Shown piece after piece: positions 1 through 16,281 of a DNA stretch of 64,000 nt. This DNA comes from Nitratireductor sp. B36 (GTDB lineage Bacteria > Pseudomonadota > Alphaproteobacteria > Rhizobiales > Rhizobiaceae). The position numbers and the translations under genes were made by a program. The stretch spans positions 262,997 to 326,996 of the forward strand of contig NZ_JACKZY010000003.1 in assembly GCF_020833685.1 (NCBI RefSeq), in the 5' to 3' direction. Every line of letters begins with the position of its first letter. Position 1 is the first letter of the stretch. Below the pieces are notes generated by a model. The model made no database searches and was not told the DNA's origin. It was given only the letters and a program-made list of their open reading frames with translations.

Positions 1-600
1 GGCGCCAGGCACCCTCGTCCTTCGACAGGCTCAGGATGAGGGTTGCTGGAAGCTCCGGCCTTCTTCAAACGTGAAATGCGGATGCAGGAGCATATGCCAC
101 GCGTGGCGCGATGAAGCTGACCGGTACGGCGCCAGGCACTCTCGCCCGTCGACGAGCTCAGGATGAGGGGTACTGGAAGCTCCGTGCTTTCTTCAAACGT
201 GAAATGCGGATGCAGTAGCATATGCCACGCGTGGCGCGATGAAGTTCACCGGTACGGCGCCAGGCACCCTCGTCCTTCGACAGGCTCAGGATGAGGGTTG
301 CTGGAAGCTCCGGCCTTCTTCAAACGTGAAATGTGGATGCGGGAGCATATGCCACGCGTGACGCGGTGAAGCTGACCGGTACCGCGCCAGGCACCCTCGC
401 CCTTCGACAGGCTCAGGATGAGGGTTACTGGAAGCTCCGTGCCTTCTTCAAACGTGAAACGCGGATGCAGGAGCATATGCCACGCGTGGCGCGATGAAGC
501 TGACCGGTACGGCGCCAGGCACCCTCGCCCTTCGACAGGCTCAGGATGAGGTTTGCTGGAAGCCCCGTGCCTTCTTCAAACGTGAAACGCGCACGCAGAA
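1..600. repeat. Tandem repeat array, unit about 127-128 bp, at least 4.7 copies
   Basis: Units begin at about 1, 128, 256, 383 and 511, each starting with GGCGCCAGGCAC or a one-base variant. Each holds the palindromic core CTTCGACAGGCTCAGGATGA followed by TTCTTCAAACGTGAAA and CATATGCCACGCGTGGCGCG. Copies differ by scattered single bases, so they are not an assembly duplicate. The last unit decays near 600. The window starts inside the array, so it may extend to the left. No credible coding sequence lies here; short open frames across it just translate the repeat. Confidence 0.9.
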
Positions 601-647
601 ATATACACCGTACGTAGCGCTACCGCTTTTCTGAGCGGGTTAAAGAG

Positions 648-680
648 CCCTCACCCTGAGCTTGTCGAAGGGCGAGGGCG
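648..680. repeat. Inverted copy of the dispersed CTTCGACA..AGGATGAGGG repeat
   Basis: The stretch CTGAGCTTGTCGAAGGGCGA is the reverse complement of the core found in the tandem array at 1-600, and of the isolated copies at 45147-45177 and 45288-45318. This short element is widely dispersed between genes in alphaproteobacteria. With the last array copy it could form a long hairpin downstream of the Rid gene, which ends at 722 on the minus strand. I see no gene in 601-721. Confidence 0.75.
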
Positions 681-721
681 CTTGGCTCCGGAGCAAAGTG
701 CTTGCGACGAGCGTCGTTGGG

Positions 722-1129
722 CTAATCGGGCAGGACCGCCGTGGCCTCGATTTCCACCTTCGCTTCGTCCTCGATGAGCGCGGTGACCTGAACGACGCTC
801 ATGGGCGGGAAGTTGCGGCCCATGACGGAGCGATAGGCTTCGCCCAGCTCGCGCAGGCGGGTGGCGTAGGCTTGCTTGTCGGTGATGAACCAGGTGAGGC
901 GCACCACATGCTCCGGGCCGGCGCCGGCTTCCTTCAGAAGCGTGACGATGTTTTCAAGCGCCTGTCGCACCTGGGCGATGAAATCGTCCGTCTCGAACAC
1001 CTGATTGCCGTTCCAGCCGATCTGTCCACCAAGGAAGACGGTGCGCCCCCTTGCAACAACACCATTGGAATACCCTCTGGCCGGAACCCAGTCGGCGGGC
1101 TGGAGAATCTGGTGAAGCGGGACAGTCAT
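722..1129 (-). CDS. Rid (YjgF/YER057c/UK114) family protein without the canonical arginine
   Basis: A 135-residue protein of the family's usual size, starting MTVPLHQILQPADWVPARGY and ending with the typical VEIEATAV strand. Family members form trimers; RidA proper hydrolyses reactive enamines and imines. At the place where RidA has its catalytic arginine (a YPAR-type motif) this protein reads FPPMS, so it belongs to a Rid subgroup lacking that residue. It is the last gene of the long leftward anthranilate-CoA/ABC transporter cluster, 57 bp after the LivF-type ATPase. The dearomatised product of that pathway is itself an enamine, so a role on that intermediate is possible but inferred only from context. 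Confidence 0.85.
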   Translation of the reverse strand: MTVPLHQILQPADWVPARGYSNGVVARGRTVFLGGQIGWNGNQVFETDDFIAQVRQALENIVTLLKEAGAGPEHVVRLTWFITDKQAYATRLRELGEAYRSVMGRNFPPMSVVQVTALIEDEAKVEIEATAVLPD

Positions 1130-1186
1130 GCTATTTCCTTCGTGCTTGGGAACTAAGGTCAGTCGATCCTGACCGTAAAGGCGTGG

Positions 1187-1873
1187 TCACACGCCGAGAA
1201 AGCGCTCCTGGATCTCATCCGTGAGTGCGGAGGGTGCACCGGTCCATGCGGTGCGGCCTTTTTCGAGAATGACGCAGCGATCCGCAACGGGCAAAAGCTC
1301 GCTGAGAGTCTTGTCGACGATCAGGATCGACTGGCCTTCCGCGCGGATGGCGCGGATGGCGCGCCAGATATCCTGACGGATCACCGGGGCAAGCCCTTCG
1401 GTCGCCTCGTCGAGAATGAGCAGGCGCGGATTGGTGGCCAGCGCCCGGCCAATGGCGAGCATCTGCTGCTCGCCGCCAGAAAGTGTGCGCGCATATTGAT
1501 CGCGCCGCTCCGCCAGGCGCGGGAACAGCGCGTTCACGCCATCGAGCGTCCACTTGCCCGGACGGGCAGCGGCGAGGATGTTTTCTTCCACCGTCAGGTT
1601 CGGGAAGCAGCGGCGGCCTTCCGGCACCAGCCCGACACCCAGCCGCGCGATGCGGTGCGGCTTGAGGCGCATGATATCTTTGCCGGCAAAGTTTATGCTG
1701 CCTGACTGTGCGGGCGTGAGGTGGCAGACGGAGCGGATCGTCGTCGTCTTGCCCATGCCGTTACGGCCCATCAGCGCCACTGCCTCGCCTTCCTCGACCG
1801 AAAGGTCGACGCCGAACAGCGCCTGCGATTTGCCGTAGAAGGTTTTCAGATCCCGGATGTCGAGCAGCTTCAT
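1187..1873 (-). CDS. ABC transporter ATP-binding protein, LivF type
   Basis: A 228-residue ATPase of the branched-chain amino acid (HAAT) importer family. Walker A is GRNGMGKTT at residues 36-44, the signature is LSGGEQQM, and Walker B is RLLILDEATEGL. The length matches LivF. Its start overlaps the stop of the LivG-type gene by 4 bp, so the two are translationally coupled. It would couple ATP hydrolysis to uptake by the two permeases encoded upstream. Because the operon carries anthranilate and tryptophan catabolic genes, the substrate is more likely an aromatic compound than leucine or valine; that is inferred from context, as the family also imports aromatic acids and amides. Confidence 0.92.
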   Translation of the reverse strand: MKLLDIRDLKTFYGKSQALFGVDLSVEEGEAVALMGRNGMGKTTTIRSVCHLTPAQSGSINFAGKDIMRLKPHRIARLGVGLVPEGRRCFPNLTVEENILAAARPGKWTLDGVNALFPRLAERRDQYARTLSGGEQQMLAIGRALATNPRLLILDEATEGLAPVIRQDIWRAIRAIRAEGQSILIVDKTLSELLPVADRCVILEKGRTAWTGAPSALTDEIQERFLGV

Positions 1874-2619
1874 GCGCCGTCTCCCAGATAGGCTTCGCGC
1901 ACGGCGGGATGATTGCGGATGTCGTCCACCGTGCCGGTGGCGATGATCCGCCCATAGACGAGGACCGAGATGCGGTCGGCAAGGGCGAAGACGGCGTCCA
2001 TGTCATGCTCGATCAGGAGGATCGGCGCTTCGGCTCGAAGCCCGTCAAGAAAAGTTGTGAGCGCCTGCGAGCCTTCGGGCCCCATGCCGGCCATGGGCTC
2101 ATCCAGCAAAAACGCCTTTGCGCCGAGCGCCAGGGCGATGGCGATTTCGAGCTGGCGGCGTTCGCCGTGCGAAAGCTCGGCGGCGGACACGTCAGCGCGG
2201 TCCGACAGGCCGACGCGGGCAAGCGCTTCATGAGCGGGCTCGGTCAGGCTTCTGTCGTGCATGACGGGTTTGAAGAAACGGAAGCTGGAACCCTGTCGCG
2301 CCTGCACCGCGAGCATCACATTGCGCAGGGCGGAAAATTCCGGGGCGAGTGACGAGACCTGAAATGTGCGGCCCATGCCAAGCCGCGCGCGGGCGGCCAC
2401 ATCGAGCGGTTTCACATCGCGGCCCTCGAAACGGATTTCGCCGCTGTCCGGCTTCAGCGAGCCGGCAATCTGATGAATGAGGGTCGATTTGCCGGCACCG
2501 TTCGGGCCGATCAGGGCGTGTATTTCACCCGGCCTGAGATCGAGGCTCACACCATCAGTCGCCTTCAGCGCGCCGAAGCTTTTTCTCAGGTCACGGATAT
2601 CGAGAATGGGTTCAGCCAT
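1870..2619 (-). CDS. ABC transporter ATP-binding protein, LivG type
   Basis: A 249-residue ATPase with Walker A GPNGAGKST at residues 38-46, signature LSHGERRQLEIA and Walker B AFLLDEPMAGMG. The C-terminal extension with the LVYGRIIATG segment is typical of LivG. It overlaps the LivM-type permease by 8 bp and the LivF-type ATPase by 4 bp. It should form the ATPase heterodimer with that LivF-type protein on the cytoplasmic face of the importer. Confidence 0.92.
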   Translation of the reverse strand: MAEPILDIRDLRKSFGALKATDGVSLDLRPGEIHALIGPNGAGKSTLIHQIAGSLKPDSGEIRFEGRDVKPLDVAARARLGMGRTFQVSSLAPEFSALRNVMLAVQARQGSSFRFFKPVMHDRSLTEPAHEALARVGLSDRADVSAAELSHGERRQLEIAIALALGAKAFLLDEPMAGMGPEGSQALTTFLDGLRAEAPILLIEHDMDAVFALADRISVLVYGRIIATGTVDDIRNHPAVREAYLGDGA

Positions 2620-3601
2620 GACGCGCCCTCCCGGCCAGAAGGCCCATCACGCCGCCGCGGGCAAACAGCACCACGGCCAGCAGGATCAGCCCGAGGAAAA
2701 ACTGCCAATGCTCTGTGATGCCGCCCAGCGCGAACTCGAACAGGACATAGACGATGGCGCCCGCGAGCGGCCCGGCAAGCCGGCCGACCCCGCCGATGAT
2801 AATCAAAACGATCAGCTCGCCCGACATGTGCCAGGAAAACATGGATGGGCTGACGAAGCGGTTGAGATCGGCAAAAAGCGCTCCGGCGAGCGCCGTCATC
2901 ATCGCGGAGATGACGAAGGCCACCAAACGCACCCTGAACGGGCCGATGCCGACGGCGGCAAGCCGCGTATCGTTCTGTCGCCCGGCCTGAAGTGCAGCAC
3001 CGAAGCGGGAATCCCGTATCAGCGCGAAAAAGACGAGGCCGATCACCAGAAGGCCAAAACAGATGAGGAAGAAGCTCATCGGGGCGAGTGTGTTCGTGCC
3101 GGGGAAGGTGTTGCGGACATAGATCGAAAGACCGTCCTCGCCTCCATAGGCGGGCCAGGAGATGGCGAAATAGTAGATCATCTGCGCGAAGGCGAGGGTG
3201 ATCATGATGAAGTAGACGCCGGAGGTCCTGAGCGAAATCAGGCCGATCAGAACGGCAACGAGCCCGGCGGCGATCGCGCCGGCGATCCAGATGACAATCA
3301 TCTGGTTGGTGCCGGGCAGGCCGAGGAGAAGCGGTTCGCTGTTGAAGGCGTGGGTGGCTAGAATGCCTGCCGCATAGCCGCCAATGCCGAAGAAGGCGGC
3401 ATGGCCGAAGGAGACCAGCCCGCCGAGACCGAGCGCGATGTTGAGCCCGGTGGCGGCAAGGCCGAGGATCGCCATGCGGGTCGCAAGCGTGATGTAGAAG
3501 GTCTCGCCCATCGCCTGCGCGATGAAGGCTGCAGCGAGAAGGCCGGCGACGATGACGATGCTGATGGTTGTTTCGCGTGTCATGGCCTGTCCCTCATGCA
3601 T
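2612..3601 (-). CDS. ABC transporter permease, LivM type
   Basis: A 329-residue, very hydrophobic protein with about eight to ten predicted membrane segments. The LivM hallmarks are GLNIALGLGGLVSFGHAAFF near the N-terminus and the EAA-like cytoplasmic loop in the C-terminal third. Start ATG overlaps the LivH-type stop by 8 bp. It is one of the two membrane subunits of the importer. The substrate is unknown; location in the anthranilate-CoA cluster points to an aromatic substrate. Confidence 0.92.
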   Translation of the reverse strand: MHEGQAMTRETTISIVIVAGLLAAAFIAQAMGETFYITLATRMAILGLAATGLNIALGLGGLVSFGHAAFFGIGGYAAGILATHAFNSEPLLLGLPGTNQMIVIWIAGAIAAGLVAVLIGLISLRTSGVYFIMITLAFAQMIYYFAISWPAYGGEDGLSIYVRNTFPGTNTLAPMSFFLICFGLLVIGLVFFALIRDSRFGAALQAGRQNDTRLAAVGIGPFRVRLVAFVISAMMTALAGALFADLNRFVSPSMFSWHMSGELIVLIIIGGVGRLAGPLAGAIVYVLFEFALGGITEHWQFFLGLILLAVVLFARGGVMGLLAGRARHG

Positions 3602-4514
3602 TCGCCGCGAACAGGCCCTGCGGCCTGAAAGCGAGGATGAGGGCCATGACGATGTAGATCAGCATGGAGGCAAGCGCTGCGCCGACGGTTGCGGCTTCGG
3701 AATTGGGCATGAACAGGCCGAAGACATGCGGCAGCAGAAAGCGGCCAAGCGTTTCTGTCAGCCCCACCAGTATGGAGCCGACCAGCGCGCCCTTGATGGA
3801 GCCGATGCCGCCAATGACGATGACCACGAAGGCGAGGATCAGCACCGGCTCGCCCATGCCCACCTGCACCGACTGAAGCGCGCCGACCATCGCGCCGGCA
3901 AGGCCGGCAAGGGCAGCGCCCAGCGCGAAAACGAGCGTGTAGAGCGTGCCGATGTCGATGCCGAGGGCGCCGATCATTTCACGGTCGGACTCGCCGGCGC
4001 GGATGCGCATGCCAAGGCGCGTCTTGCCGATCAGGAGATAGAGCCCGATGGCAACCGCGATGCCGACGCCGATCACCGCGAGACGGTAGATGGGGTATTG
4101 CGCGCCGCCGGGCAGGTGCACCGCGCCGGAAAGAAGCTGCGGAATGTCGAGATAGAGCGGGAAGGAGCCGAAAACCCAGCGCGTGCCCTCGGAGAAGATG
4201 AGGATCAGCGCGAAGGTGGCGAGCACCTGATCGAGATGGTCGCGTTCGTAAAGCCGTCTTATGACGAGGATTTCGACCAGCGCGCCAGCGGCGGCGGCGG
4301 CAGCGAGACTGGCGACGAGGCCGAGCCAGAAGGAGCCGGTCGCTGCGGCCACGGTCGCGCAGGCAAATGCGCCGACCATGAAGAGCGAACCATGCGCAAG
4401 GTTGATGAGCCCCATGACGCCGAAGATCAGCGTCAGGCCGGCGGCCATCAGAAACAGCATCACGCCGAACTGCAGGCCATTCAGGATTTGCTCTATGAGA
4501 AGGGTCAGGGACAC
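3594..4514 (-). CDS. ABC transporter permease, LivH type
   Basis: A 306-residue membrane protein beginning MSLTLLIEQILNGLQFGVML, with the family motif FGVMGLINLAHGSLFMVGAF and the later VIGGIGSIKGALVG loop. It is the partner of the LivM-type permease, which it overlaps by 8 bp. A 175-bp gap upstream, filled by a pair of opposed repeats (4561-4684), separates it from the binding-protein gene. Such repeats within an operon often stabilise the upstream message, which would favour high binding-protein levels; that role is inferred. Confidence 0.92.
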   Translation of the reverse strand: MSLTLLIEQILNGLQFGVMLFLMAAGLTLIFGVMGLINLAHGSLFMVGAFACATVAAATGSFWLGLVASLAAAAAAGALVEILVIRRLYERDHLDQVLATFALILIFSEGTRWVFGSFPLYLDIPQLLSGAVHLPGGAQYPIYRLAVIGVGIAVAIGLYLLIGKTRLGMRIRAGESDREMIGALGIDIGTLYTLVFALGAALAGLAGAMVGALQSVQVGMGEPVLILAFVVIVIGGIGSIKGALVGSILVGLTETLGRFLLPHVFGLFMPNSEAATVGAALASMLIYIVMALILAFRPQGLFAANA

Positions 4515-4560
4515 GGGGAATTTTCACCGTCTGGTTTTTGGGGAGGAGCGCTGCGTGGAC

Positions 4561-4684
4561 GCCTCCCTCTCCCCGTTCACGGGGAGAGGGTGAGGGTGAG
4601 GGGCTGCGCCATGATCTGCAAACATGGGCGCCCGCCCCTCATCCGCCTGCCGGCACCTTCTCCCCGCCAGCGGGGAGAAGGAGG
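4561..4684. repeat. Intergenic palindromic repeat pair (family B), copy 1
   Basis: Two hairpin arms in opposite orientation. The first contains CTCTCCCCGTTCACGGGGAG followed by GGTGAGGGTGAGGGGC. The second contains CCCCTCATCCGCCTGCCGGC followed by CTTCTCCCCGCCAGCGGGGA. The same pair recurs at 5874-5986 and 11690-11797. It lies between the LivH-type permease and the binding-protein gene, in the untranslated part of the operon. It resembles BIME/REP-type elements in size and position. Confidence 0.85.
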
Positions 4685-4689
4685 CTGTC

Positions 4690-5826
4690 CTACATCTTGC
4701 ACTCGGCCGCGTAGGCGTCCTTGTGATCGGTGAATGCGGTGGCCACGATCTTGTTGGTCAGCGTGTCACCATCCTTCACCACCTCGCGGACATAGAAATC
4801 CTGGATCGGGTGGTTGTTGGTGTTGAAAGAGAATTTTCCGCGAACGGAATCGAAATCCGCTTCCTTCAACGCCGCGCGGAAGGCGTCCTTATCCTTCACG
4901 CTTGCCTTTTCGGCGGCAGAAAGGATGAGGTTTGCCGTGTCATACCCTTGCGCGGCATAGACGGAGGGCAGGCGGCCATAGGCTTCCTTGAAGCCTTCGA
5001 CGAAAGCCTTGTTGGCCTCATTGTCGAGATCATAGGCCCAGGAAGCGGTGTTTTTCACCCCAAGCGCCGCATCGCCAATGGCGGGCAGCACGTCCTGGCT
5101 GAAGGAGAAAGCAGGTCCAAGCAGCGGCAGGCCAACGCCCGACTGGGCATATTGCTTGGTGAAGGCAATGCCCATGCCGCCCGGTAGGAAGATGAACACC
5201 GAATCCGCACCCGAAGCGCGAATCTGGGCGATCTCGGCGGCATAGTCCGTCTGACCGAGCTTGGTGTAGACCTCACCCGCCAGTTCACCCTTGTAGAAGC
5301 GCTTGAAGCCGGTCAGCGAATCTTTGCCGGCCGGATAGTTGGGCGCCATGATGAAGGTCTTTTTGTAGTCCTTGTTGGCGGCCTCGCCCATCGCCTCGTG
5401 GAAATTGTCGTTCTGATAGGCGACGTTGAAATAGCTCGGGCTGCATCCGGCACCGGCAAGGGCCGAGGGGCCGGCGTTGACTGACAGATAGATCACGTCC
5501 TGCGCCGTGGCCGACGGCACGACCGCCATGGCCAGGTTCGACCAGATGATGCCGGTCATCAGGTCCACCTTGTCGCTCTGGATCATCTTGTCGGCGATCT
5601 GGACCGCAAGTTCCGGCTTCTGGGCGTCGTCTTCAATAACGACATCGACTTCCTTGTTGCCGGACTGCTCGATGGCGAGCATGAAACCGTCGCGGGCATC
5701 AATGCCAAGGCCTGCGCCGCCGCCCGAAAGCGTGGTGATCATGCCGATCTTGATCGGTTCGGCGAAGGCGTTTCCGGCGACGCTTGCCGAAAGGGCAAGC
5801 AGGCTTGCTGCAAGTAGCTTCTTCAT
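4690..5826 (-). CDS. ABC transporter substrate-binding protein, LivJ/K type
   Basis: The ATG at 5826 gives 378 residues starting MKKLLAASLLALSASVAGNA with a clean signal peptide cut after AFA at about residue 22. It is preceded by GGGAGAA at good spacing; an open frame reaching 5934 runs through repeat sequence and is not the true start. The mature part opens EPIKIGMITTLSGGGAGLG, typical of type I periplasmic binding proteins for amino acids and aromatic acids. It delivers the substrate to the two permeases and two ATPases encoded downstream. The ligand is not readable from sequence. Confidence 0.92.
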   Translation of the reverse strand: MKKLLAASLLALSASVAGNAFAEPIKIGMITTLSGGGAGLGIDARDGFMLAIEQSGNKEVDVVIEDDAQKPELAVQIADKMIQSDKVDLMTGIIWSNLAMAVVPSATAQDVIYLSVNAGPSALAGAGCSPSYFNVAYQNDNFHEAMGEAANKDYKKTFIMAPNYPAGKDSLTGFKRFYKGELAGEVYTKLGQTDYAAEIAQIRASGADSVFIFLPGGMGIAFTKQYAQSGVGLPLLGPAFSFSQDVLPAIGDAALGVKNTASWAYDLDNEANKAFVEGFKEAYGRLPSVYAAQGYDTANLILSAAEKASVKDKDAFRAALKEADFDSVRGKFSFNTNNHPIQDFYVREVVKDGDTLTNKIVATAFTDHKDAYAAECKM

Positions 5827-5873
5827 GTGTGTTCTCCCTTTTTTGTTCCCGTTTATCTGCTGGGCAGGTGTTT

Positions 5874-5986
5874 GCCCCTCATCCGCCTGCCGGCACCTTC
5901 TCCCCGCAAGCGAGGAGAAGGGGGCTGAATGCAACGTTTATGCCTCCCTCGCCCGGCTTGCGGGGAGAGGGTAAGGGTGAGGGGCT
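5874..5986. repeat. Intergenic palindromic repeat pair (family B), copy 2
   Basis: This is the same two-armed element as at 4561-4684: CCCCTCATCCGCCTGCCGGC then CTCCCCGCAAGCGAGGAGAA, and in the other arm CGGGGAGAGGGTAAGGGTGAGGGG. It fills most of the 185-bp gap between the binding-protein gene and tryptophan 2,3-dioxygenase. I see no independent promoter in the remaining bases, though one cannot be excluded. Confidence 0.85.
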
Positions 5987-6011
5987 GGTGCGGCGGTTCA
6001 TCATCATCTCC

Positions 6012-6845
6012 TCACATGTCCGTTCGAACTCTCCAGAGCTCGGGGAATAGTTCCACATCCAGCATCTTGCGCAAGTAGGAAACGCCGGATGTGCCGCCGG
6101 TCCCGCGTTTCAGCCCGATGATCCGTTCGACGGTGGTCACGTGGTTGAAGCGCCAGCGGCGGAAATAGTCTTCGAAATCAATCAGTTTTTCGGCCAGCTC
6201 GTAAAGCGCCCAATGTGCATCGGGCCGCGCATAGACTGCCTTCCATGCGGCCTGAACCTGTTCATTGGACTCGCGCTTCTCACGCCAGCTCGTCCGCTCC
6301 GCATCGGGGCCAATGTCGAAACCGTTGCGCGCCAGAAGCTGCAGCGCCTCGTCATAGAGGCTGGGCTCGGCCAGAATTTCTTCAAGCCGCGCCGTAATCT
6401 GCGGCAGATCGGAGTGCGGCTTGAGCATGGCAAGATTTCTATTGCCGGCCAGAAACTCGATGGAGCGATATTGCCACGACTGGAAGCCCGAGGACTGGCC
6501 AAGCGCATCGCGGAAGGTGGAATACTCGCTGGGCGTCATGGTGCGCAGTACGTCCCAGGCGCTGTTCAACTGCTCGAAGATGCGTGCCACGCGGGTCAGC
6601 ATCTTGAAGGCCGGGCGCAGGCGGTCTTCGGCGATGGCCGCGCGTGCGGAGCGGATCTCGGTGATGGCGAGTTTCATCCAGAGCTCGGAGGTCTGGTGCT
6701 GGATGATGAACAGCAGCTCATCACGCGCTTCAGACAGGGGTTCCTGCGCATCGAGGATCTTTTCCAGATGCAGATAGTCGCTGTAGGACATGGGCGGCTT
6801 GATATCCGCTGCCCTGTCGTCGTCGAGCTCCGGCTGGCTTGCCAT
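6012..6845 (-). CDS. kynA: Tryptophan 2,3-dioxygenase
   Basis: A 277-residue protein of normal bacterial length. It is a cytoplasmic heme enzyme that opens the indole ring of L-tryptophan to N-formylkynurenine with O2. The family signature [14 protein letters not shown] contains the active-site histidine. The C-terminal [20 protein letters not shown] holds the proximal heme histidine. The stop-to-start gap to the CoA ligase gene is 2 bp, so the two are co-transcribed. Its presence beside an anthranilate-CoA pathway and opposite a formamidase-like gene links tryptophan breakdown to anthranilate; kynureninase, needed in between, is missing from this window. Confidence 0.97.
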
Positions 6846-6847
6846 GG

Positions 6848-8467
6848 TCAGTTTTTCTCCCGCAGGCGGAAACGCTGGATCTTGCCCGTCTCGGTCTTCG
6901 GCAGAGCGTCCAGAAACTTGATGGAACGTGGATATTTGTAAGGCGCGATTGCTGCCTTCACGTGGTCCTGAAGCCGTTTCACCGTGAGCTCATCGCGCGC
7001 GACCCCTTCGGCCAGCACCACATGGGCTTCGACAATCTGTCCGCGCTCCTCGCTCGGTGCACCGATGACGGCGCATTCCATGACCTCGGCATGGGCAAGC
7101 AATGCCGCTTCCACCTCGGGACCGGCGATGTTGTAGCCTGCAGAGACGATCATGTCGTCGGAGCGGGCTGCGAAATGGAAGCGGCCGTCCTCATCCTGAT
7201 AAAAGCTGTCGCCCGTCAGATTCCAGCCGTCGCGGACATACTCCTTCTGCCGTTCGTCGGCGAGATAGCGGCAGCCGGTCGGGCCGCGCACGGCCAGTCG
7301 GCCGGTTTCGCCGCGCGGCAGTTCGTTCATGTCTTCATCAACGATCCGCGCTTCATAGCCCGTCACCGGGCGGCCCGTGGTGGCGGGATGACGATCATCG
7401 AAACGGTTGGAGATGAAGATATGCAGCATCTCGGTTGCGCCAATACCGTCGAGGATCGGTTTGCCTGTCTTTTCCGTCCACGCCTCGAACACCGGGCCGG
7501 GCAGGGTCTCGCCCGCCGAGACGGCAACGCGGAGCGAGGAGAGATCCGCCCCCTCGTCCATCGCCGCCATCATGGCGCGGTAGGCGGTGGGAGCAGTGAA
7601 GCTCACCGTGGCACGGTATTTTTCGATGATCTCGATCATATTGGGCGGGGTGGCGCTTTCAAGCAGCGTCGCCGTTGCGCCAAAACGCAAGGGAAAGATC
7701 GCCAGACCGCCAAGCCCGAAGGTGAAGGCGAGCGGTGGCGAGCCGACGAACACATCGTCAGGCGTGACCTGAAGCACTTCCTTCGCATAGGCATCGGCGA
7801 TGATCAGCAGATCGCGATGGAAATGCATGGTCGCCTTGGGCGTGCCGGTGGTGCCGGAGGTGAACCCCAGAAGCGCGACATCGTCACGACCGGTTTTGAC
7901 GGCATCGAACTGAACAGGCTTGTCGAGGGCGATGCGGTCTAGCTCGGCGTCGAAATTGGCGGTGCCGTCGAAGCCGACGACTTTCTTGAGGAATTTGCTG
8001 TCCTTGGCGCAGGCGACGAGCTCGTCCTTGATGCGGGTGTCGCACAGCGCAAGGCCGATCTCTGCCTTGTCGACAATCTTGGCCAGTTCGCCGGCGCGCA
8101 GCATCGGCATGGTGTTGACGACAACTGCGCCTGCCTTCGTGGCGGCCAGCCAGCACGCCACCATGGCCGGGTTGTTGGCCGAGCGGATGAGGATTCGGTT
8201 GCCCGGCTTGACGCCGTAATCTTCCACCAGCGCATGGGCGAGGCGGCTCGTCCAGTCTGCCAGTTCCTTGTATGTGCGTCGCCGGCCATTGCCGATCAGC
8301 GCCACGCGGTCGCCAAAACCACGCTCGACCATGCGGTCGGTCAGTTCGACGCCGGCATTCAGATAGTCGGGGTATTCAAAACCGTCGAGCAGGAATTCCG
8401 GCCATTGGTCCTGCGGCGGGAGATTGTCCCGCGCGAATGTGTCTGTGTGACCCGTCGGTCCGAGCAT
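6848..8467 (-). CDS. Benzoate-CoA / 2-aminobenzoate-CoA ligase (AMP-forming)
   Basis: A 539-residue member of the acyl-adenylate-forming family. The ATP-binding loop [15 protein letters not shown] is near residues 203-217, and the C-terminal catalytic lysine motif [13 protein letters not shown] is intact. The family converts an aryl acid, ATP and CoA to aryl-CoA, AMP and pyrophosphate. Benzoate-CoA ligases and the Azoarcus 2-aminobenzoate-CoA ligase (AbmG) are the closest types by architecture. Context (tryptophan dioxygenase next door, aminobenzoyl-CoA monooxygenase in the same operon) favours 2-aminobenzoate as substrate. It starts at ATG 8467, 10 bp after the acyl-CoA dehydrogenase stop. 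Confidence 0.9.
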
Positions 8468-8477
8468 ATGTTCACCC

Positions 8478-9617
8478 TCATTTTATCTGCCGTGCAATGA
8501 CGACTTTCTGGACGTCTGATGCGCCCTCATAGATGCGCAGAGCCCTGATCTCCCGGTAAAGGCTCTCCACGATATGTCCGCGGCGCACGCCATCACCGCC
8601 GTGGATTTGCACTGCCTTGTCGATGACCTGCTGTGCGCGGTCGGTGGCGAAGAGTTTTGCCATGGCAGCCTCGCGGGTCACGCGCGGCGCGCCCATGTCC
8701 TTGGTCCATGCGGCGCGGTAAATGAGGAGAGCGGCAGCGTCGACATCAAGCGCCATATCCGCGATGTGGCCCTGCACCATCTGCAGGTCGAACAGCGGTG
8801 CGCCGAAAAGCTCGCGGCTGCCTGCCCGGTCCAGTGTCTCGTCCAGCGCGCGACGCGCAAAGCCGAGTGCGGCCGCACCCACGGTCGAGCGGAACACGTC
8901 GAGCACCGACATGGCGATCTTGAATCCTTCGCCCGGCTTGCCGATCAGTGCGGAGGCCGGCACGCGCACATCGTTGAAAGAGAGCCGCGCCAACGGATGC
9001 GGCGCGATCACGTCCAGACGTTCTGCGACCTCCAGCCCCGGCGTGTCCGCAGGGACGAGAAAGGCGGAGATGCCCTTCGCGCCCGGCGCTTCGCCGGTGC
9101 GGGCAAAGACCGTGTAGAGATCGGCGATGCCACCATTGGAAATCCAGGTCTTTTCGCCTGAAAGCACATAATCATCGCCATCGCGGGTGGCGGTCATGTC
9201 CATGTTTGCGACGTCCGAACCGGAGCGTGGCTCGGAAAGGGCGAAGGCGGATATAGCCTTGCCGGCGCGGGTCCTGTCGAGCCATTGCTGCTGTTCGGGC
9301 GTGCCGAACAGGCTGATCGCGCCGGTGCCGAGCCCCTGCATGGCGAAGGCGAAATCGGCCAGCCCGTCATGACGGGCCAGCGTTTCGCGCGTCAGGCAAA
9401 GCGTGCGCACATCGAGCGGGCCGGGATTGGCGGTGTCGAGCGCGGTGGGCTTCAGGAAGCCGGCTTCGCCGAGCCGCGCAACGAGGTCGCGGCAGGCGGC
9501 GTCCACATCGCTGTGGTCGACGGGGAGGTTTTGGGCGCACCATGCGTCGAGTTTATCGGCCCAGTCGCGGTGGCGCTGTTCGAAGAAGGGCCAGTCGAGG
9601 AAGGAGCGGTCAGGCAT
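8478..9617 (-). CDS. Acyl-CoA dehydrogenase
   Basis: A 379-residue FAD enzyme of normal family length. It has the FAD-binding [15 protein letters not shown] region, the [20 protein letters not shown] strand and the C-terminal [18 protein letters not shown] signature. I use the ATG at 9617, which shares one base with the stop of the enoyl-CoA hydratase gene; a TTG one codon earlier is the alternative. It is likely to oxidise an alicyclic acyl-CoA formed after ring reduction of aminobenzoyl-CoA, feeding electrons to ETF. That role rests on operon context; exact substrate unknown. Confidence 0.92.
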
Positions 9618-10429
9618 CAATCCCCCTCAAATACCGGTTTTTCCTTGGCGACGAACGCCCGGTACGCCCGCTCGAAATCCTTTGTCTGCATGCAGATGGC
9701 CTGGGCCTGGGCTTCTGCCTCGATGGCCTGTTCGAGACCCATCGACCATTCCTGATTAAGCTGCGTCTTGGTGATGCCGTGCGCAAAGGTCGGCCCGGCA
9801 GCGATCCGCGAGGCCATGGACAACGCTTCTGTTTCCAGTGCGTCGGCGGCCACGAGCCGGTTATAGAAACCCCAGCGCTCGCCTTCTTCGGCGCTCATGG
9901 AGCGGCCGGTGTAAAGCAGCTCCGCCGCACGGCCCTGACCGATGATGCGGGGCAGCATGGCGCAGGCGCCCATGTCGCAGCCGGCAAGCCCGACACGGGT
10001 GAACAGGAAAGCCGTTTTCGCTTCTGGTGTGGCGAGCCGCATATCCGAAGCCATTGCGATGATCGCGCCAGCTCCGACAGCCACGCCGTCGACCGCCGAA
10101 ATGATCGGCTTGTTGCAGGCGATCATGGCCTTGACCAGATCGCCGGTCATGCGGGTGAAGGCGAGCAGGCCCTTCATGTCCATATCGACCAGCGGGCCGA
10201 TGATGTCGTGCACATCTCCACCCGAGCAGAAATTGCCGCCATTGGGCAGGAACACGACCGCGTCCACATCATCCGCATAGGGCAGGGCGCGGAACGTGTC
10301 GCGCAGCTCCGCATAGGAATCGAAGGTGAGCGGATTCTTGCGGTCCGGGCGGTCGAGCTGGATCAGCGCGACGCTGCCTTCCATGCGCCATATGAAATGC
10401 TTCGGCTTCAGGTTGGCCATGGTGCTCAT
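9617..10429 (-). CDS. Enoyl-CoA hydratase/isomerase family protein (crotonase fold)
   Basis: About 270 residues. Crotonase motifs are visible: [16 protein letters not shown] forms the first oxyanion-hole region and [20 protein letters not shown] the second. I chose the ATG at 10429 because it makes an ATGA overlap with the MarR gene's stop; a longer frame begins with TTG at 10444. It would hydrate or cleave the ring of a cyclohexenoyl-CoA intermediate in anthraniloyl-CoA breakdown. A ring-opening activity is plausible but cannot be told from sequence. Confidence 0.9.
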
Positions 10430-10902
10430 ACGCCGCCCTCCCAATTGCTTTCGAATGTCTTGAGCGTGCCGGCAAGCGCGCGCGCCTCATCTTCCGGCAA
10501 ATTGCCGAGAAGTTCGTCGATCCAGCGCTCATGAGCTTCGGCCATCGCCGCGAAAGCCTCCTTGCCGGCCGGTGTCAGCTTGATGATGGAGGTGCGGCGG
10601 TCGCCATCGCGCTTGGTTCGACTGGCCAGACCATCGGTCACCAGCCGCTCGACAATGCCGGTCACATTGCCGTTCGAAACAAGCAGGAAGCGCGATATGT
10701 CGCTCATCGCCATACCTTCGGGTGCACGGTCGAGGGCCGAGAGCACATCAAAGCGGGGCAGGGTCGTGTCGAAGCGGGTCTTGAGCCTTTCGCGCAGAAC
10801 GGCTTCGATGAGGCGCGAGGCACGCAGGATCCTGATCCACAGGCGCAGACGTTCCTTTGCCGGAGCTCCGCTGCGGACGGAAGCCAGGGGGGCGCTTACC
10901 AT
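10426..10902 (-). CDS. MarR family transcriptional regulator
   Basis: A 158-residue winged-helix regulator. The recognition region reads [20 protein letters not shown] followed by [20 protein letters not shown], the standard MarR wing. MarR proteins in aromatic-CoA clusters usually repress until an aryl-CoA thioester binds. The gene sits inside the operon it probably controls, overlapping the SDR gene upstream by 7 bp and the hydratase gene downstream by 4 bp. A good candidate operator is the A/T-rich inverted repeat at 14185-14218, in front of the first gene of the operon. Confidence 0.93.
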
Positions 10903-11654
10903 GTTTCACCTCCAGAGATGGAAATCGACTGGCCGGTGACCGACGAGGCGGCCGGACTGACGAGCCACAATGCCGCCGCCGCCACTTCATCCGGCTGGAT
11001 CAGCCGGCCATGGGGATTGGCTTCGACAAAACCCTTGCGGGCTTCTTCGTGGCTGCGCCCGGTCTTCTCGACCACGCGCTCGATGGATTCTTCCAGCATC
11101 TCGGTTTCCACGTAACCGGGACAGATGGCATTGACCGTGACGCCGGTCTTGACCAGTTCCACGGAAAGCGCCCGCATGAGCCCGATGACGCCGTGCTTGG
11201 ATGCGACATAGGGCGCGACATAGGCATAGCCCTTGAGGCCAGCGACGGAGGCGACGAAGATGATGCGCCCGCTGCCGCGCTTTGCCATCGGAGAAAGCGC
11301 GGGCTTCACCGTGAGGAACGCGCCGGTCATGTTGACGTCGAGGATGCGGTTCCAGTCTTCGAGCTTCGTGCGATGGGCCGGCGCGCTGGATGCCGTGCCG
11401 GCATTGGCGATGACAATGTCAAAGGGCCTGCGTGCGGCTTCTGCCGTTTCATAGAGCGCCTGCATGGAGGCTTCGTCGGTCACGTCGGCGGTCTGCGCGT
11501 GGATGCGCTCGTGGCGAGCGGCGACTTTTTCCAGCGGCTCGGCACGCCGCCCGCATATGGTGACGTCGATGCCGGCTTCCGCGAGGGAGAGCGCGATCGC
11601 TTCGCCGACGCCCGTTCCGCCGCCTGTCACGAGTGCGTGGCGTGAACTGGTCAT
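10896..11654 (-). CDS. Short-chain dehydrogenase/reductase
   Basis: A 252-residue classical SDR. The Rossmann glycine motif is TGGGTGVGEA near residue 10, NAG is in VIANAGTASS, and the catalytic Tyr-Lys pair is in APYVASKHGV, with the serine in SVAGLKGYAY. The C-terminus [12 protein letters not shown] is typical. It is likely the 3-hydroxyacyl-CoA (alicyclic) dehydrogenase step of the pathway. A 166-bp gap with repeat family B separates it from the monooxygenase/reductase gene upstream. Confidence 0.92.
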   Translation of the reverse strand: MTSSRHALVTGGGTGVGEAIALSLAEAGIDVTICGRRAEPLEKVAARHERIHAQTADVTDEASMQALYETAEAARRPFDIVIANAGTASSAPAHRTKLEDWNRILDVNMTGAFLTVKPALSPMAKRGSGRIIFVASVAGLKGYAYVAPYVASKHGVIGLMRALSVELVKTGVTVNAICPGYVETEMLEESIERVVEKTGRSHEEARKGFVEANPHGRLIQPDEVAAAALWLVSPAASSVTGQSISISGGETW

Positions 11655-11689
11655 TGTGCTGGCCTTTTCCTTGAAGTCTGGCGATGCCC

Positions 11690-11797
11690 CTCATCCGCCT
11701 GCCGGCACCTTCTCCCCGCACGCGGGGAGAAGGACGAAGCGGCGACGTCTATACCCCCTTCTCCCCTTGGGCGGGGAGAAGGTGAGGATGAGGGGCA
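11690..11797. repeat. Intergenic palindromic repeat pair (family B), copy 3
   Basis: This is the third copy of the two-armed element: CCCCTCATCCGCCTGCCGGC with CTCCCCGCACGCGGGGAGAA, then the opposing arm with GGGCGGGGAGAAGGTGAGGA. It occupies the gap between the monooxygenase/reductase gene and the SDR gene. All three copies in the window lie inside the same leftward transcription unit. Confidence 0.85.
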
Positions 11798-11820
11798 GAG
11801 CAGGCATTCGGAAAACATCG

Positions 11821-14112
11821 TCAAACCTTCCCCGTCATCTGTTCGGCCCGCTCGGCGAGCCGGTAGAGCTGATCGCGGCCTGGCAGATAGGGATCGGGCC
11901 AGGTCACGCTCTTGTCTCCAAGGGTTGCCGCAGCGTGGAGCGTCCAATAGGGATCGGCCAGATGCGGGCGGGCGAGGCAGACGAGGTCGGCGCGGCCGGC
12001 CATCAAGATCGAATTGACGTGATCCGGCTCGTAGATATTGCCGACGGCCATGGTCGCCATGCCGGTCTCGTTGCGGATGCGGTCGGAGAAGGGCGTCTGG
12101 AACATGCGTCCATAGACGGGGCGGGCGCGCTTCGAGGTCTGGCCTGCCGAGACGTCGCAAATGTCCACACCCGCATCCTGCAGCATGCGGGCGATCTCGA
12201 CGGCCTCCTCCGGCGTCACGCCTTCATCGCCGACCCAGTCATTGGCAGAAATGCGCACCGAGATGGGTTTGTCGTCTGGCCAGACAGCCCGCACAGCATG
12301 GAAGATCTCCAGCGGATAGCGCATGCGGTTCTCAAGGCTTCCGCCATATTCATCCTCGCGCCGGTTGGTGAGCGGCGATATGAAGGACGACAGGAGATAG
12401 CCATGGGCGCAGTGCAGTTCGAGCATGTCGAACCCGCAGCGCTCGGCCATTTCTGCAGCGGAAACGAACTGGTCGCGCACCATGTCCATATCGGCGCGAT
12501 CCATGGCCTTGGGTGTCTGGTTCTTTTCTGACCAGGACACATCGGAAGCAGCCAGAAGCGGCCAGTTGCCTTCTTTCAGCGGCGCGTCCATTTCCTCCCA
12601 GCCGAGCTGGGTGGAGCCCTTCGGACCGGAATGGCCGATCTGCGCGCAGATCTTCGCATCCGTTTCCCGATGAACGAAATCGACGATGCGTGTCCACGCG
12701 GCTTCGTGCTCGGGCTTGTAGAAGCCAGGGCATCCGGGCGTGATGCGCCCCTCGGGGCTGACACAGGTCATCTCAATATAGACAAGGCCTGCGCCGCCTT
12801 TGGCGCGCTCGCAATAATGCACCATGTGCCAGTCGGTCGGGCAGCCGTCGACAGCCTTGTACTGGGCCATGGGTGAGACCACGACGCGGTTTTTCAGCGT
12901 AAGACCGCGCAGCTTGTAGGGCGCGAACATGGGCGGGCGGGGGGTATTGTCTTCGGCACCGGCCTGCTGCTGGAACCAGCTTTCGGCGCCTGAGAGCCAT
13001 TCGGGGTCGCGCAGGCGCAGGTTCTCATGGCTGATGCGCTGCGAGCGGGTGAGCAGCGAATAGTTGAACTGCACCGGATCGAGATCGAGATAGCGCTCCA
13101 CCTCCTCGAACCATTCCAGCGAGTTGCGTGCCGCCGACTGAAGACGCAGGACTTCCAGACGCCTTGCATCCTCGTATTTGTCGAAGGCTTCCTTCAGCGT
13201 CGGCTCGGTGTGGAGATATTCGGCCAGGGCAATGGCACTCTCGAGCGCCAGCTTGGTGCCTGAGCCGATGGAGAAGTGGGCGCTGGCGGCGGCGTCGCCC
13301 ATCAGCGCGATGTTTTCATGCGACCAGCGCTCGCAAAGGACACGCGGGAAGTTGATCCACGCTGACCCGCGAATGTGGTTGGCATTGGTCATCAGGCTGT
13401 GGCCACCCAGATGATCCTTGAAGATCCGCTCGCAGACGGCGATGGATTCCTGCTGGCTCATCTCGCCAAAGCCGAATTTCTCCCAGGTCTCCGGGCCGCA
13501 TTCCACGATGAAGGTCGCGGTGTCGTCGTCGAACTGGTAGGCGTGTGCCCAGACCCAGCCATGCTCGGTCTTTTCGAAGATGAAGGTGAAGGCGTCGTCG
13601 AATTTCTGATGCGTGCCGAGCCAGACGAACTTGCACTTGCGCACGTCGATGTCGGGCTTGAACACATCCGCAAATGTGGTGCGGGTCTTGGAGTTCAAGC
13701 CATCGGCCGCCAGCACCATGTCGTATTCGGCCATGAAGGGGCGGGGGTCGTCGATCTCAGTCTGAAACTGGAGATTGATGCCAAGCTCACGGGCGCGTTC
13801 CTGCAGGAGGATGAGGAGGCGCATGCGGCCGATGCCACAGAAACCGTGTCCCGTTGAGAGGGTGCGCACGCCCTGGTGCACCACGGCGATGTCGTCCCAA
13901 TAGGCGAAATGTTCGCGGATGCGTTCGGCGCTTACCGGATCGTTTTCAGCCAGATTGTCGAGGGTCTCGTCGGAAAGAACCACGCCCCAGCCGAATGTGT
14001 CGTCTGGCTTGTTTCGTTCAAAAACCGTGATGTCGTGAGCCGCATTCCGCAGCTTCATCGAGATTGCGAAGTAGAGGCCTGCCGGGCCCCCGCCGAGAAC
14101 AGCAACTTTCAT
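11821..14112 (-). CDS. 2-aminobenzoyl-CoA monooxygenase/reductase-type fusion flavoenzyme
   Basis: A 763-residue two-domain flavoprotein. Residues 1 to about 375 form an aromatic-ring FAD monooxygenase ([14 protein letters not shown] at residues 7-20, [20 protein letters not shown] later). Residues about 390-755 form an old-yellow-enzyme domain ([20 protein letters not shown], then [20 protein letters not shown]). This is the layout of the Azoarcus enzyme that hydroxylates 2-aminobenzoyl-CoA and reduces the ring to a non-aromatic keto product. Databases often name the family bifunctional salicylyl-CoA 5-hydroxylase/oxidoreductase. It heads the operon, with GGAGGAAGGAG 10 bases ahead of its ATG. 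Aminobenzoyl-CoA as substrate is inferred from neighbours; salicylyl-CoA is the alternative. Confidence 0.9.
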
Positions 14113-14184
14113 GCTCGCGCTCCTTCCTCCCAGGATCGCTTAACACCTGGCCTTATAAGCTCGGAGCATTGCACCGGAGAAACG

Positions 14185-14218
14185 ATATTTCAAGTATGAA
14201 ATTTTAAGGTTGAAATAT
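14185..14218. promoter_or_regulatory. Inverted-repeat operator candidate upstream of the anthranilate-CoA operon
   Basis: ATATTTCAA at 14185-14193 is matched by TTGAAATAT at 14210-14218. Nested inside is a tighter palindrome, ATTTCAAGTATGAAAT (14187-14202). Such A/T-rich palindromes are typical MarR-family operators. It lies 73 bp before the monooxygenase/reductase start and 88 bp before the divergent hydrolase, so one site could control both directions. The pairing to the MarR protein at 10426-10902 is inferred. Confidence 0.6.
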
Positions 14219-14305
14219 ATCCGGTCTGGACGCAGTCTACACGACGCAGTGTGATGATGACAGAATACCCCGGCAAGGCCAAGCAGGGTGTTTCGGCATC
14301 GGCAG

Positions 14306-15148
14306 ATGGAGGGGCGTGTGTTCTATCATCAGATCAACGATTGGGACGATGCTTATGCCAATGGAGCAAACATCCCACGAGGAGACCGATGGCCTGGCGT
14401 TTGGGTAGAACCTGCGCAGGCCTACCGCGATGGGCTTTCGGCTGCAGGACGCGCCGAACTCGACCTGCCCTATGGCGATGGTGCGCGCAATCGGTTTGAT
14501 CTTTTCCTACCGGAGGGTAAGCCAGCCGGGCTCGTGGTCTTCATCCATGGTGGCTTTTGGTTGAAGCTCGACAAAAGCTACTGGTCGCATCTGGCTGCCG
14601 GCGCGGTGGATAGTGGTTACGCGGTTGCCATGCCGTCCTACACGCTGTGTCCCGAAAATTCGATCTCAGGCATTGTGCGCGAGATCGGCGATGCCGTGCG
14701 CGCCGCGGCGAAACGCGTTGATGGCCCCCTCATCCTGACCGGACATTCGGCAGGCGGTCATCTCGCATCCCGCATGGCGTGTGAGACGTCGCCCCTGCCC
14801 GCAGAGGTGCAGGCACGCCTTCGTCATGTTCTGTCCATTTCCGGGGTGCATGATCTGCGTCCGATGATCAACACCGCCATGAACGAGAATCTTAAGATCA
14901 CGCCTGAAGAGGCGCGGGCTGAAAGCCCGGCCTTGCTGGCGCCTTTGCCAGGCGTCAGGCTGACTTGCTGGGTCGGAGCTTCGGAGCGAAGCGAATTCCT
15001 GCGCCAGAATGCGTTGCTTGCGAATGTCTGGATCGGTCTTGGCGCAAACACGGCCGCTGTGGAAGAACCAGACCGTCATCATTTCGATGTCATTGACGGC
15101 CTCGCGGATTCCGACCATCAGATCGTCCGCTGTCTGTTGACAGCGTAA
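14306..15148 (+). CDS. Alpha/beta hydrolase, kynurenine formamidase-like
   Basis: About 280 residues. The HGGFW motif (VVFIHGGFWLKLDKSYW) is the oxyanion signature typical of kynurenine formamidases and related esterases. The nucleophile serine is in LTGHSAGGHLA and a histidine follows in PDRHHFDVIDG. The start is uncertain: ATG 14306, or GTG 14318 with GGAGGGG just before it. It would hydrolyse N-formylkynurenine, the product of the dioxygenase at 6012-6845, to kynurenine and formate. Divergent placement from the anthranilate-CoA operon supports that, but other esters remain possible. Confidence 0.85.
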   Translation: MEGRVFYHQINDWDDAYANGANIPRGDRWPGVWVEPAQAYRDGLSAAGRAELDLPYGDGARNRFDLFLPEGKPAGLVVFIHGGFWLKLDKSYWSHLAAGAVDSGYAVAMPSYTLCPENSISGIVREIGDAVRAAAKRVDGPLILTGHSAGGHLASRMACETSPLPAEVQARLRHVLSISGVHDLRPMINTAMNENLKITPEEARAESPALLAPLPGVRLTCWVGASERSEFLRQNALLANVWIGLGANTAAVEEPDRHHFDVIDGLADSDHQIVRCLLTA

Positions 15149-15203
15149 GTCTGTGGGCCAAGTCTGGCCAGATCCTGTTTAGAATCCGCTCCATGGAGCC
15201 CCT

Positions 15204-15440
15204 ATGAGACCTGTTTTCGTTCAATTGCGCTGCAAGCCCGGCAAGACCTATGAGGTGGCCGATGAACTCTACAAGCGCGAAATCGCCTCCGAACTTTACT
15301 CCACCAGTGGCGATTACGACCTCCTCATGAAGGTCTATATCGATGATGGCGTGGATATCGGCAAATTCGTCAGTGAGAACATTGCCAACGTGCCGGGTAT
15401 TCGCCGCTCGCTCACCACGTTGACCTTCAAGGCGTTCTAG
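15204..15440 (+). CDS. Stand-alone Lrp/AsnC ligand-binding (RAM) domain protein
   Basis: 78 residues beginning MRPVFVQLRCKPGKTYEVAD and ending NVPGIRRSLTTLTFKAF. This is the alpha-beta ligand-binding domain of Lrp/AsnC regulators without any helix-turn-helix. Such stand-alone domains form dimers or octamers that bind amino acids and may modulate full-length Lrp proteins. It lies 55 bp downstream of the formamidase-like gene on the same strand, so it may be co-transcribed and sense tryptophan-related amino acids, which is speculative. Confidence 0.85.
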   Translation: MRPVFVQLRCKPGKTYEVADELYKREIASELYSTSGDYDLLMKVYIDDGVDIGKFVSENIANVPGIRRSLTTLTFKAF

Positions 15441-15518
15441 AAAACAAACGCCTTGGCGCGGGGTCTCTCTTGCGATACGAACCAACAATCTAAATCGGTT
15501 CGCATCTGGGAGGCGTCG

Positions 15519-16202: not shown

Positions 16203-16281
16203 GGGAACCTGCACGGCGGTGTGCCCGTTGCCTTCCGTGGCAGAACATGTTTTCTGCGCGACGACGAGACGGGATTGAACC

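Follow-up and report, generated by a model that had tools for sequence, protein, structure and literature searches.

The window analysed here is a stretch of 64,000 nucleotides from Nitratireductor sp. B36 (contig NZ_JACKZY010000003.1). Its positions 722-15148 raise the question of what is degraded by a gene cluster that places a tryptophan 2,3-dioxygenase (TDO), an aryl-CoA ligase and a fused 2-aminobenzoyl-CoA monooxygenase/reductase (ABMR) next to an ABC importer. Our answer, to which we give a probability of about 0.82, is that the cluster, under control of MarR, serves to break down tryptophan, kynurenine and anthranilate; the gene identities were assigned by homology, and from them we infer the reactions, the importer substrate and the regulation. 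TDO would open tryptophan to N-formylkynurenine, the divergent alpha/beta hydrolase would strip off the formyl group, an unlinked kynureninase would release anthranilate and alanine, the ligase would make 2-aminobenzoyl-CoA and ABMR would hydroxylate and reduce it to 2-amino-5-oxocyclohex-1-ene-1-carbonyl-CoA. A Rid-family protein, a short-chain dehydrogenase/reductase (SDR), a crotonase and an acyl-CoA dehydrogenase would then deaminate, open and beta-oxidise the ring, and the importer would supply an aromatic carboxylate, with anthranilate or kynurenine as the likeliest candidates.

We favour this reading because the genome encodes a kynureninase (kynU), because kynU and TDO are linked in relatives and because an anthranilate-CoA ligase is the closest solved relative of the ligase. 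It is also favoured because the genome has no match to 3-hydroxyanthranilate dioxygenase (3-HAO) and neither AntA nor KynB above cut-off, and because split clusters in Mesorhizobium join hydrolase, ligase, TDO and kynU and have the same palindrome between hydrolase and ligase. The original prediction had proposed this route to anthraniloyl-CoA from the sequence alone, and the family matches, the kynU gene of the genome and those in the clusters of relatives support it.

The genome (4.19 Mb in 9 contigs, 99.7 % complete) carries here 13 leftward genes and one divergent hydrolase gene, as judged from open reading frames and family profile matches. From ABMR on, the order on the minus strand is SDR, MarR, crotonase, acyl-CoA dehydrogenase, ligase, TDO, substrate-binding protein (SBP), two permeases, two ATPases and Rid. 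The genes from TDO to SDR are tightly packed (intergenic gaps of -19 to 10 bp), and larger gaps of 166-182 bp occur at LivH-SBP, SBP-TDO and SDR-ABMR. Seven of the nine further genus genomes have all 14 genes in this order, and in the remaining two the locus is broken at contig ends and agrees in its readable parts; since the same order recurs across the genus, the arrangement is not due to chance. Family profiles recovered every gene of the predicted inventory, although the outermost gene of the leftward unit (722-1129, Rid-family) had been left unnamed.

Proposed tryptophan entry: TDO, kynureninase and the divergent hydrolase

TDO passes TIGR03036 (411 bits, cut-off 391) and aligns to 2nox over 264 residues. 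The gene is single-copy in the genome, and a single TDO match was likewise obtained for every one of the 10 genus genomes. The original prediction gave a kynureninase encoded elsewhere as one of two options, and our genome search found one kynU on another contig (G000:C2:216324-217478; TIGR01814 304.5 bits, cut-off 246.4), whose product aligns to 1qz9 across almost the entire length; in relatives the gene lies within the same cluster. All 10 genus genomes have exactly one kynureninase. In three of them it shares a contig with TDO at a distance of some 0.8 Mb or more, in seven it is on a separate contig, and none of the genus TDO loci retrieved contains kynU.

For comparison we used the best 80 of 592 ABMR loci (the named loci), a sample that is for this reason biased towards close ABMR; the nearest, from Aquibium, Mesorhizobium microcysteis, a Rhizobiaceae metagenome-assembled genome, Aquamicrobium and Nitratireductor, have ABMR of 83-88 % identity. 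TDO is linked in 25 of the 80. Fifty of them, picked by flank length, are called full loci: TDO is linked in 19, and kynU in 12 of these 19 vs 0 of the 31 without TDO (kinship among genomes is uncorrected in the locus-linkage and hydrolase-TDO associations given here). In eight of the 80 (Aquibium, Nitratireductor, Thalassospira and others) kynU stands exactly between ligase and TDO, a junction that measures 2 bp in the window; in Thalassospira marina, kynU and kynA are annotated at that position.

A simple move of kynU out of the operon is not established, as the KynU tree sets the genus apart from the clustered kynU. Joining the genus with Aquibium L044 was weakly rejected (p-AU 0.039) and joining it with L044, L046, L047 and L048 more strongly (p-AU 0.0003); the tree has one long branch (L121), and the tested groups were named post hoc, with the tree already seen. 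In the TDO tree the genus adjoins Aquibium. We also observed that kynU adjoins a divergent GntR-like regulator, named by eye, in the genome itself (L008, 8271-10343) and in Mesorhizobium L189 (10456-12603); the unlinked kynU may therefore have its own regulator.

Regarding deformylation, no classical KynB formamidase was found in the genome (best 28.4 bits, cut-off 223). The predicted formamidase-like hydrolase is present and would be the formamidase. It carries the motifs HGG-x-W and GHSAGG, with S153 and H264 invariant in 21 sequences, and matches the Drosophila kynurenine formamidase 4e11 at E 2e-15 by sequence. Among solved structures, 2pbl (49 % identity) comes closest to its predicted fold (pLDDT 90), a Pseudomonas lipase comes second, and Foldseek ranks 3-6 are kynurenine formamidases, the Drosophila enzyme first among them. 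The hydrolase therefore has the formamidase fold and its nucleophile and histidine motifs; lipases share the fold.

The hydrolase might instead be an unrelated esterase or thioesterase, with N-formylkynurenine deformylated by another enzyme or spontaneously. The lipase at fold rank 2 and the deposition of 2pbl as a putative thioesterase speak for this, as does a score above the cut-off of the NCBI family NF058665 'hormone-sensitive lipase', yet the folds ranked directly below are kynurenine formamidases. Two Mesorhizobium genomes also argue against an unrelated function: they carry the hydrolase gene on a different contig from the ABMR locus, oriented divergently to ligase and TDO and with kynU adjacent (in L189 on the opposite strand). 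We further surveyed TDO, KynB and hydrolase at the genome level for 50 of the 80 loci, most of which come from isolates with long contigs. TDO is present in 41 of these 50 genomes with close ABMR, all near-full matches (31 over cut-off; G375 in two pieces; a fragment in G369 left out). Hydrolase homologues of at least 50 % identity, a threshold set post hoc, occur in 31/41 TDO genomes vs 0/9 others, and at 45 % or more in 36/41 vs 3/9. KynB is over cut-off in only two genomes: Pannonibacter, the single such case among the 41, where TDO is present and the hydrolase gives no hit, and Aestuariivirga, where TDO is absent and the hydrolase has a homologue of 42 % identity. On the other side, four TDO genomes have neither hydrolase nor KynB, and within full loci the link is weaker: the hydrolase is found in 9/19 loci with TDO vs 3/31 others, so that 3 of the 12 loci with hydrolase have no TDO in their flanks. 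On balance we consider an unrelated esterase or thioesterase improbable, and the divergent hydrolase is the likeliest kynurenine formamidase of this genome.

Proposed anthranilate branch, importer and Rid protein

ABMR scores 1313 bits against NF006101 (cut-off 1078) and is the sole full-length copy in the genome. Its N-terminal part is FAD-monooxygenase-like and its C-terminal part is of the old-yellow-enzyme type; solved relatives cover either half and never both (best 60 of 144). According to the passages retrieved from a review (PMC4539516), ABMR converts 2-aminobenzoyl-CoA to 2-amino-5-oxocyclohex-1-ene-1-carbonyl-CoA, which is degraded further by beta-oxidation enzymes. The ligase belongs to the AMP-forming aryl-CoA ligases and falls narrowly below the benzoate-CoA ligase family cut-off (370 vs 375 bits). 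Its top solved relative is the anthranilate-CoA ligase 4wv3 (288 bits), followed by the benzoate-CoA ligase 2v7b (268 bits). A fate via 3-hydroxyanthranilate or catechol was considered and rejected: the genome has no 3-HAO match, and its best AntA profile hit reaches 154 bits against a cut-off of 672. The genus is not uniform in this respect, as 3-HAO is above cut-off in four of its ten genomes (G290, G293, G294 and G295).

ABMR homologues of 49-56 % identity also occur without a neighbouring match, at the thresholds applied, to any of the other 14 query genes (L141-L144, L147-L151, L153, L154, L156, L157, L160 and L163), and the four of these stand-alone homologues that were aligned lack a 12-residue segment. 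The stand-alone homologues may act on a different substrate.

The importer comprises five genes (1187-5829; two ABC_tran, two BPD_transp_2 and one Peripla_BP_6). By sequence and by predicted fold (pLDDT 90) its SBP, for which we picked a start codon inside the longer reading frame 4690-5934, is nearest to the Rhodopseudomonas proteins 4evq and 4ey3, solved with 4-hydroxybenzoate, at an identity of only about 30 %. For one of those relatives, RPA0668, the passage retrieved from PMC3223731 reports binding of benzoate, 4-hydroxybenzoate and salicylate by melting shift. Because the SBP is closest to binders of aromatic acids, the ligand is more likely anthranilate, kynurenine or another aryl acid than tryptophan. 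Of the substrates originally proposed, import of anthranilate or kynurenine fits these relatives, while tryptophan is less supported. The window-type SBP is found in 11/19 full loci with TDO vs 4/31 without, which is not decisive for the ligand.

The Rid protein is linked in 33 of the 50 full loci, an undercount, as is that of LivF, because both genes can sit beyond the 10-kb flank. It falls below the cut-offs of TIGR00004 and PRK11401, and Met110 replaces the arginine of the FPARSC motif of HI0719, which we take to be an active-site residue of archetypal RidA. Its residues W14, W39, W80, M110 and E120 are unvaried in all 71 sequences, its own included. With neither the active-site arginine nor a score above the family cut-off, the protein is not an archetypal RidA imine deaminase and is, judged by its residues, a distinct type. 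It could hydrolyse the enamine product of ABMR. In the retrieved passages of PMC4539516, deamination and ring opening in the anthraniloyl-CoA route are only called beta-oxidation-like, and the fixed set of SDR, crotonase, acyl-CoA dehydrogenase and Rid offers good candidates for these unsolved last steps. In other ABMR clusters, additional genes were noted in the regions L200, 9681-11863, L199, 10940-12928, and L201, 10746-11861: a divergent 3-hydroxyacyl-CoA dehydrogenase gene, accompanied in L200 by an enoyl-CoA hydratase-related gene, and in L199 and L201 a thioesterase gene. These genes are absent from the window cluster and are further candidates for the late steps.

The putative MarR operator and other features of the locus

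Alignment of the gap between ABMR and the hydrolase from the genus and its relatives revealed one conserved block. In the window, 14188-14201 and 14202-14215 resemble TTTCAAGCTTGAAA and are the sole sites in 64 kb at up to 2 mismatches. The palindrome was picked only once the alignment had been seen, and 9 of the 80 named loci were part of that alignment. In the 78 named loci that could be counted (the other two have too little upstream sequence), 43 have a similar site no more than 150 bp upstream of ABMR. Of the 67 sites detected in these loci, 53 occupy that position, where an even spread would put 0.6. Within the genus the palindrome is upstream of ABMR in 7/8 loci, and in the class sample in 7/17 loci whose ABMR reaches 59 % identity or more and in 3/23 whose ABMR is below that value. 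It is a putative MarR operator, and MarR is likely a repressor of the cluster.

In the split Mesorhizobium loci the plain 14-mer lies between hydrolase and ligase (7760 in L189, 8836 in L190), although a trained matrix found the site in L189 and none in L190, which disturbs a tidy picture. The palindrome recurs beside this hydrolase/ligase/TDO/kynU cluster, and a single MarR regulon is therefore suggested. We tentatively propose, at somewhat less than even odds, that the kynurenine and anthraniloyl-CoA branches form one alphaproteobacterial MarR regulon, in which an alpha/beta-hydrolase formamidase would replace KynB and a dedicated Met-type Rid (unvaried Trp14, Trp39, Trp80 and Glu120) would hydrolyse the cyclic enamine made by ABMR and lead to ring opening. 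A shared operator at the unlinked kynU of the genus was tried and rejected: the trained matrix found none in L008 and L182-L188, and the plain 14-mer, with 3 mismatches allowed, hit once each in L008, L182, L187 and L188, always more than 7 kb from kynU.

Features of the locus (window positions; strand "." for no strand)
Feature	Position	Strand	Basis
Rid-family protein, proposed enamine hydrolase (inference)	722..1129	-	PF01042 87 bits; TIGR00004 59 bits, below cut-off 106
ABC importer ATPase, LivF-type by position	1187..1873	-	PF00005; synteny
ABC importer ATPase, LivG-type	1870..2619	-	PF00005 + PF12399; synteny
ABC importer permease, LivM-type by position	2612..3601	-	PF02653 (BPD_transp_2); synteny
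ABC importer permease, LivH-type by position	3594..4514	-	PF02653 (BPD_transp_2); synteny
Periplasmic substrate-binding protein (SBP), ligand probably aromatic carboxylate	4690..5829	-	PF13458 (Peripla_BP_6); solved relatives 4evq, 4ey3
Tryptophan 2,3-dioxygenase (TDO)	6012..6845	-	TIGR03036; 2nox alignment
2-aminobenzoate-CoA ligase (ABCL)	6848..8467	-	best solved relative 4wv3, anthranilate-CoA ligase
Acyl-CoA dehydrogenase	8478..9620	-	PF00441, PF02770; linked in 47/50 full loci
Enoyl-CoA hydratase (crotonase) family protein	9617..10444	-	NF006107 over cut-off; linked in 50/50 full loci
MarR-family regulator, likely cluster repressor	10426..10902	-	PF12802; linked in 50/50 full loci
Short-chain dehydrogenase/reductase (SDR)	10896..11654	-	PF00106; linked in 46/50 full loci
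2-aminobenzoyl-CoA monooxygenase/reductase (ABMR)	11821..14112	-	NF006101; alignment of 12 full-length homologues
Two head-to-tail palindromes, putative MarR operator between ABMR and hydrolase	14188..14215 (14188-14201, 14202-14215)	.	footprint alignment
Alpha/beta hydrolase, probable kynurenine formamidase (AFM), start codon uncertain	14288..15148	+	relatives 2pbl, 4e11

The three larger operon gaps each contain an exact copy of a 29-base stretch that is part of a palindromic repeat (4637-4665, 5877-5905 and 11689-11717), with no copy elsewhere in the 64 kb when 3 mismatches are allowed. It is variable across the genus, being found in 6/9 TDO loci and 0/7 kynU loci. A 128-bp tandem repeat of 4.7 copies (1-598) lies directly downstream of the Rid gene, and a gene of the D-lyxose isomerase family (15453-16202; PF07385, 336 bits) adjoins the hydrolase gene without an evident pathway link. 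An Rfam search of 1-16500 gave no match at the gathering threshold.

Rival readings and known systems

Several observations weigh against a cluster for tryptophan, kynurenine and anthranilate. The KynU tree shows no simple descent of the genus kynU from clustered kynU, and the genus kynU is not under the palindrome. TDO is missing from the flanks of 31 of the 50 full ABMR loci, the ligase leads the benzoate-CoA ligases by a small margin of 20 bits, and the hydrolase is named a lipase by its NCBI family. The NCBI name of the ABMR family NF006101, an annotation only, is bifunctional salicylyl-CoA 5-hydroxylase/oxidoreductase. Moreover, abm and kyn genes were assigned to Cupriavidus metallidurans, which nevertheless failed to grow on anthranilate (PMC8879955).

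Some of these points would suit a core that serves salicylate, the ligase making salicylyl-CoA and the fusion 5-hydroxylating it towards gentisyl-CoA, with TDO as a passenger. The family name and the modest margin by which the ligase is nearer to anthranilate-CoA than to benzoate-CoA ligases speak for it, and salicylate was also among the ligands of RPA0668, the characterised binding protein nearest to the SBP, in the work cited above. Such a simple 5-hydroxylation, however, has no use for the old-yellow-enzyme half of the fusion. Linkage to TDO and kynU is repeated among the loci, and in two Mesorhizobium genomes the ligase itself lies within the hydrolase/ligase/TDO/kynU clusters. In addition, Arthrobacter sp. 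Rue61a, which uses a CoA route for anthranilate, does not grow on salicylate or gentisate according to the retrieved passages of PMC3534580, and we regard the salicylate reading as very improbable. It is less far-fetched, though still unlikely, that the cluster mainly scavenges anthranilate or another aryl acid and that TDO is a side entrance, endogenous tryptophan not being the main substrate. The resemblance of the SBP to aryl-acid binders and the unlinked kynurenine step of the genus would agree with this, and the window-type importer (at least 58 % identity) occurs without TDO in the locus in 6 of 18 named loci; but five of these six were examined genome-wide, and all five have TDO elsewhere (L053, L055, L059, L066 and L079). 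TDO also sits between the importer and ligase genes and is kept in 10/10 genus genomes, which counts against a mere scavenging system.

Among known systems, the 2-aminobenzoate clusters of Azoarcus evansii, as reportedly described by Schuhle et al. in 2001, hold ligase, ABMR, beta-oxidation-type enzymes, MarR, an ABC binding protein and a 'translation inhibitor' (Rid). By this gene list, and not by sequence, the window is alike in its AMP-forming ligase, ABMR fusion, beta-oxidation-type enzymes (SDR, crotonase and acyl-CoA dehydrogenase), MarR, SBP and Rid, and differs in adding TDO, the divergent formamidase-like hydrolase and a whole importer. The plasmid cluster of Thalassospira marina (L199) has the same order, divergent hydrolase-ABMR-SDR-MarR-crotonase-acyl-CoA dehydrogenase-ligase-TDO, and a RidA-family gene, but has kynU between ligase and TDO, a thioesterase gene after TDO and no Liv-type importer in the stretch shown. 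The megaplasmid cluster of Ruegeria pomeroyi DSS-3 (L198) shares ABMR, SDR, MarR, crotonase, acyl-CoA dehydrogenase, ligase and RidA, with TDO and an alpha/beta hydrolase divergent; it differs in a cupin gene before the ligase, in TDO standing on the divergent side and in having no Liv-type importer in the stretch shown.

A study of Phaeobacter inhibens is said to have proposed tryptophan degradation via 2-aminobenzoyl-CoA, although our literature search did not find it. That search, of open-licence papers, also found none describing TDO or kynU together with ABMR in one cluster. An anthranilate-CoA ligase and ABMR are described for Arthrobacter sp. Rue61a (PMC3534580); ligase activity came from two ligase genes, and the pathway is fed by quinaldine degradation, not by tryptophan. 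Anthranilate-grown cells contained anthraniloyl-CoA and a C7H8O4 CoA ester, possibly cyclohexanedione-carboxyl-CoA (PMC3534580); the latter would be formed once the ABMR product is deaminated. In a 2022 study of a pathway tool (PMC9007349), the breakdown of tryptophan via anthraniloyl-CoA monooxygenase/reductase is among the pathways left out because too little was known about them; the route is overall the same as that of the window, and the retrieved passage gives no genes. The bundling of these functions to which the original prediction pointed is real, but it is less exceptional than implied there, as the route already appears in the literature and 25/80 named loci have a linked TDO.

The pathway itself is already known; to it the present analysis adds a hydrolase that is probably the formamidase, a palindrome as putative operator, a Rid protein of a distinct type and the class of ligand that the importer is likely to bind. 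It also suggests that some automatic names are misleading: the fusion is called 'salicylyl-CoA 5-hydroxylase', and the probable formamidase goes under 'hormone-sensitive lipase' or 'putative thioesterase'. The fixed gene set, the kynurenine genes and the putative operator make up a compact, testable system for the long-known Azoarcus route.

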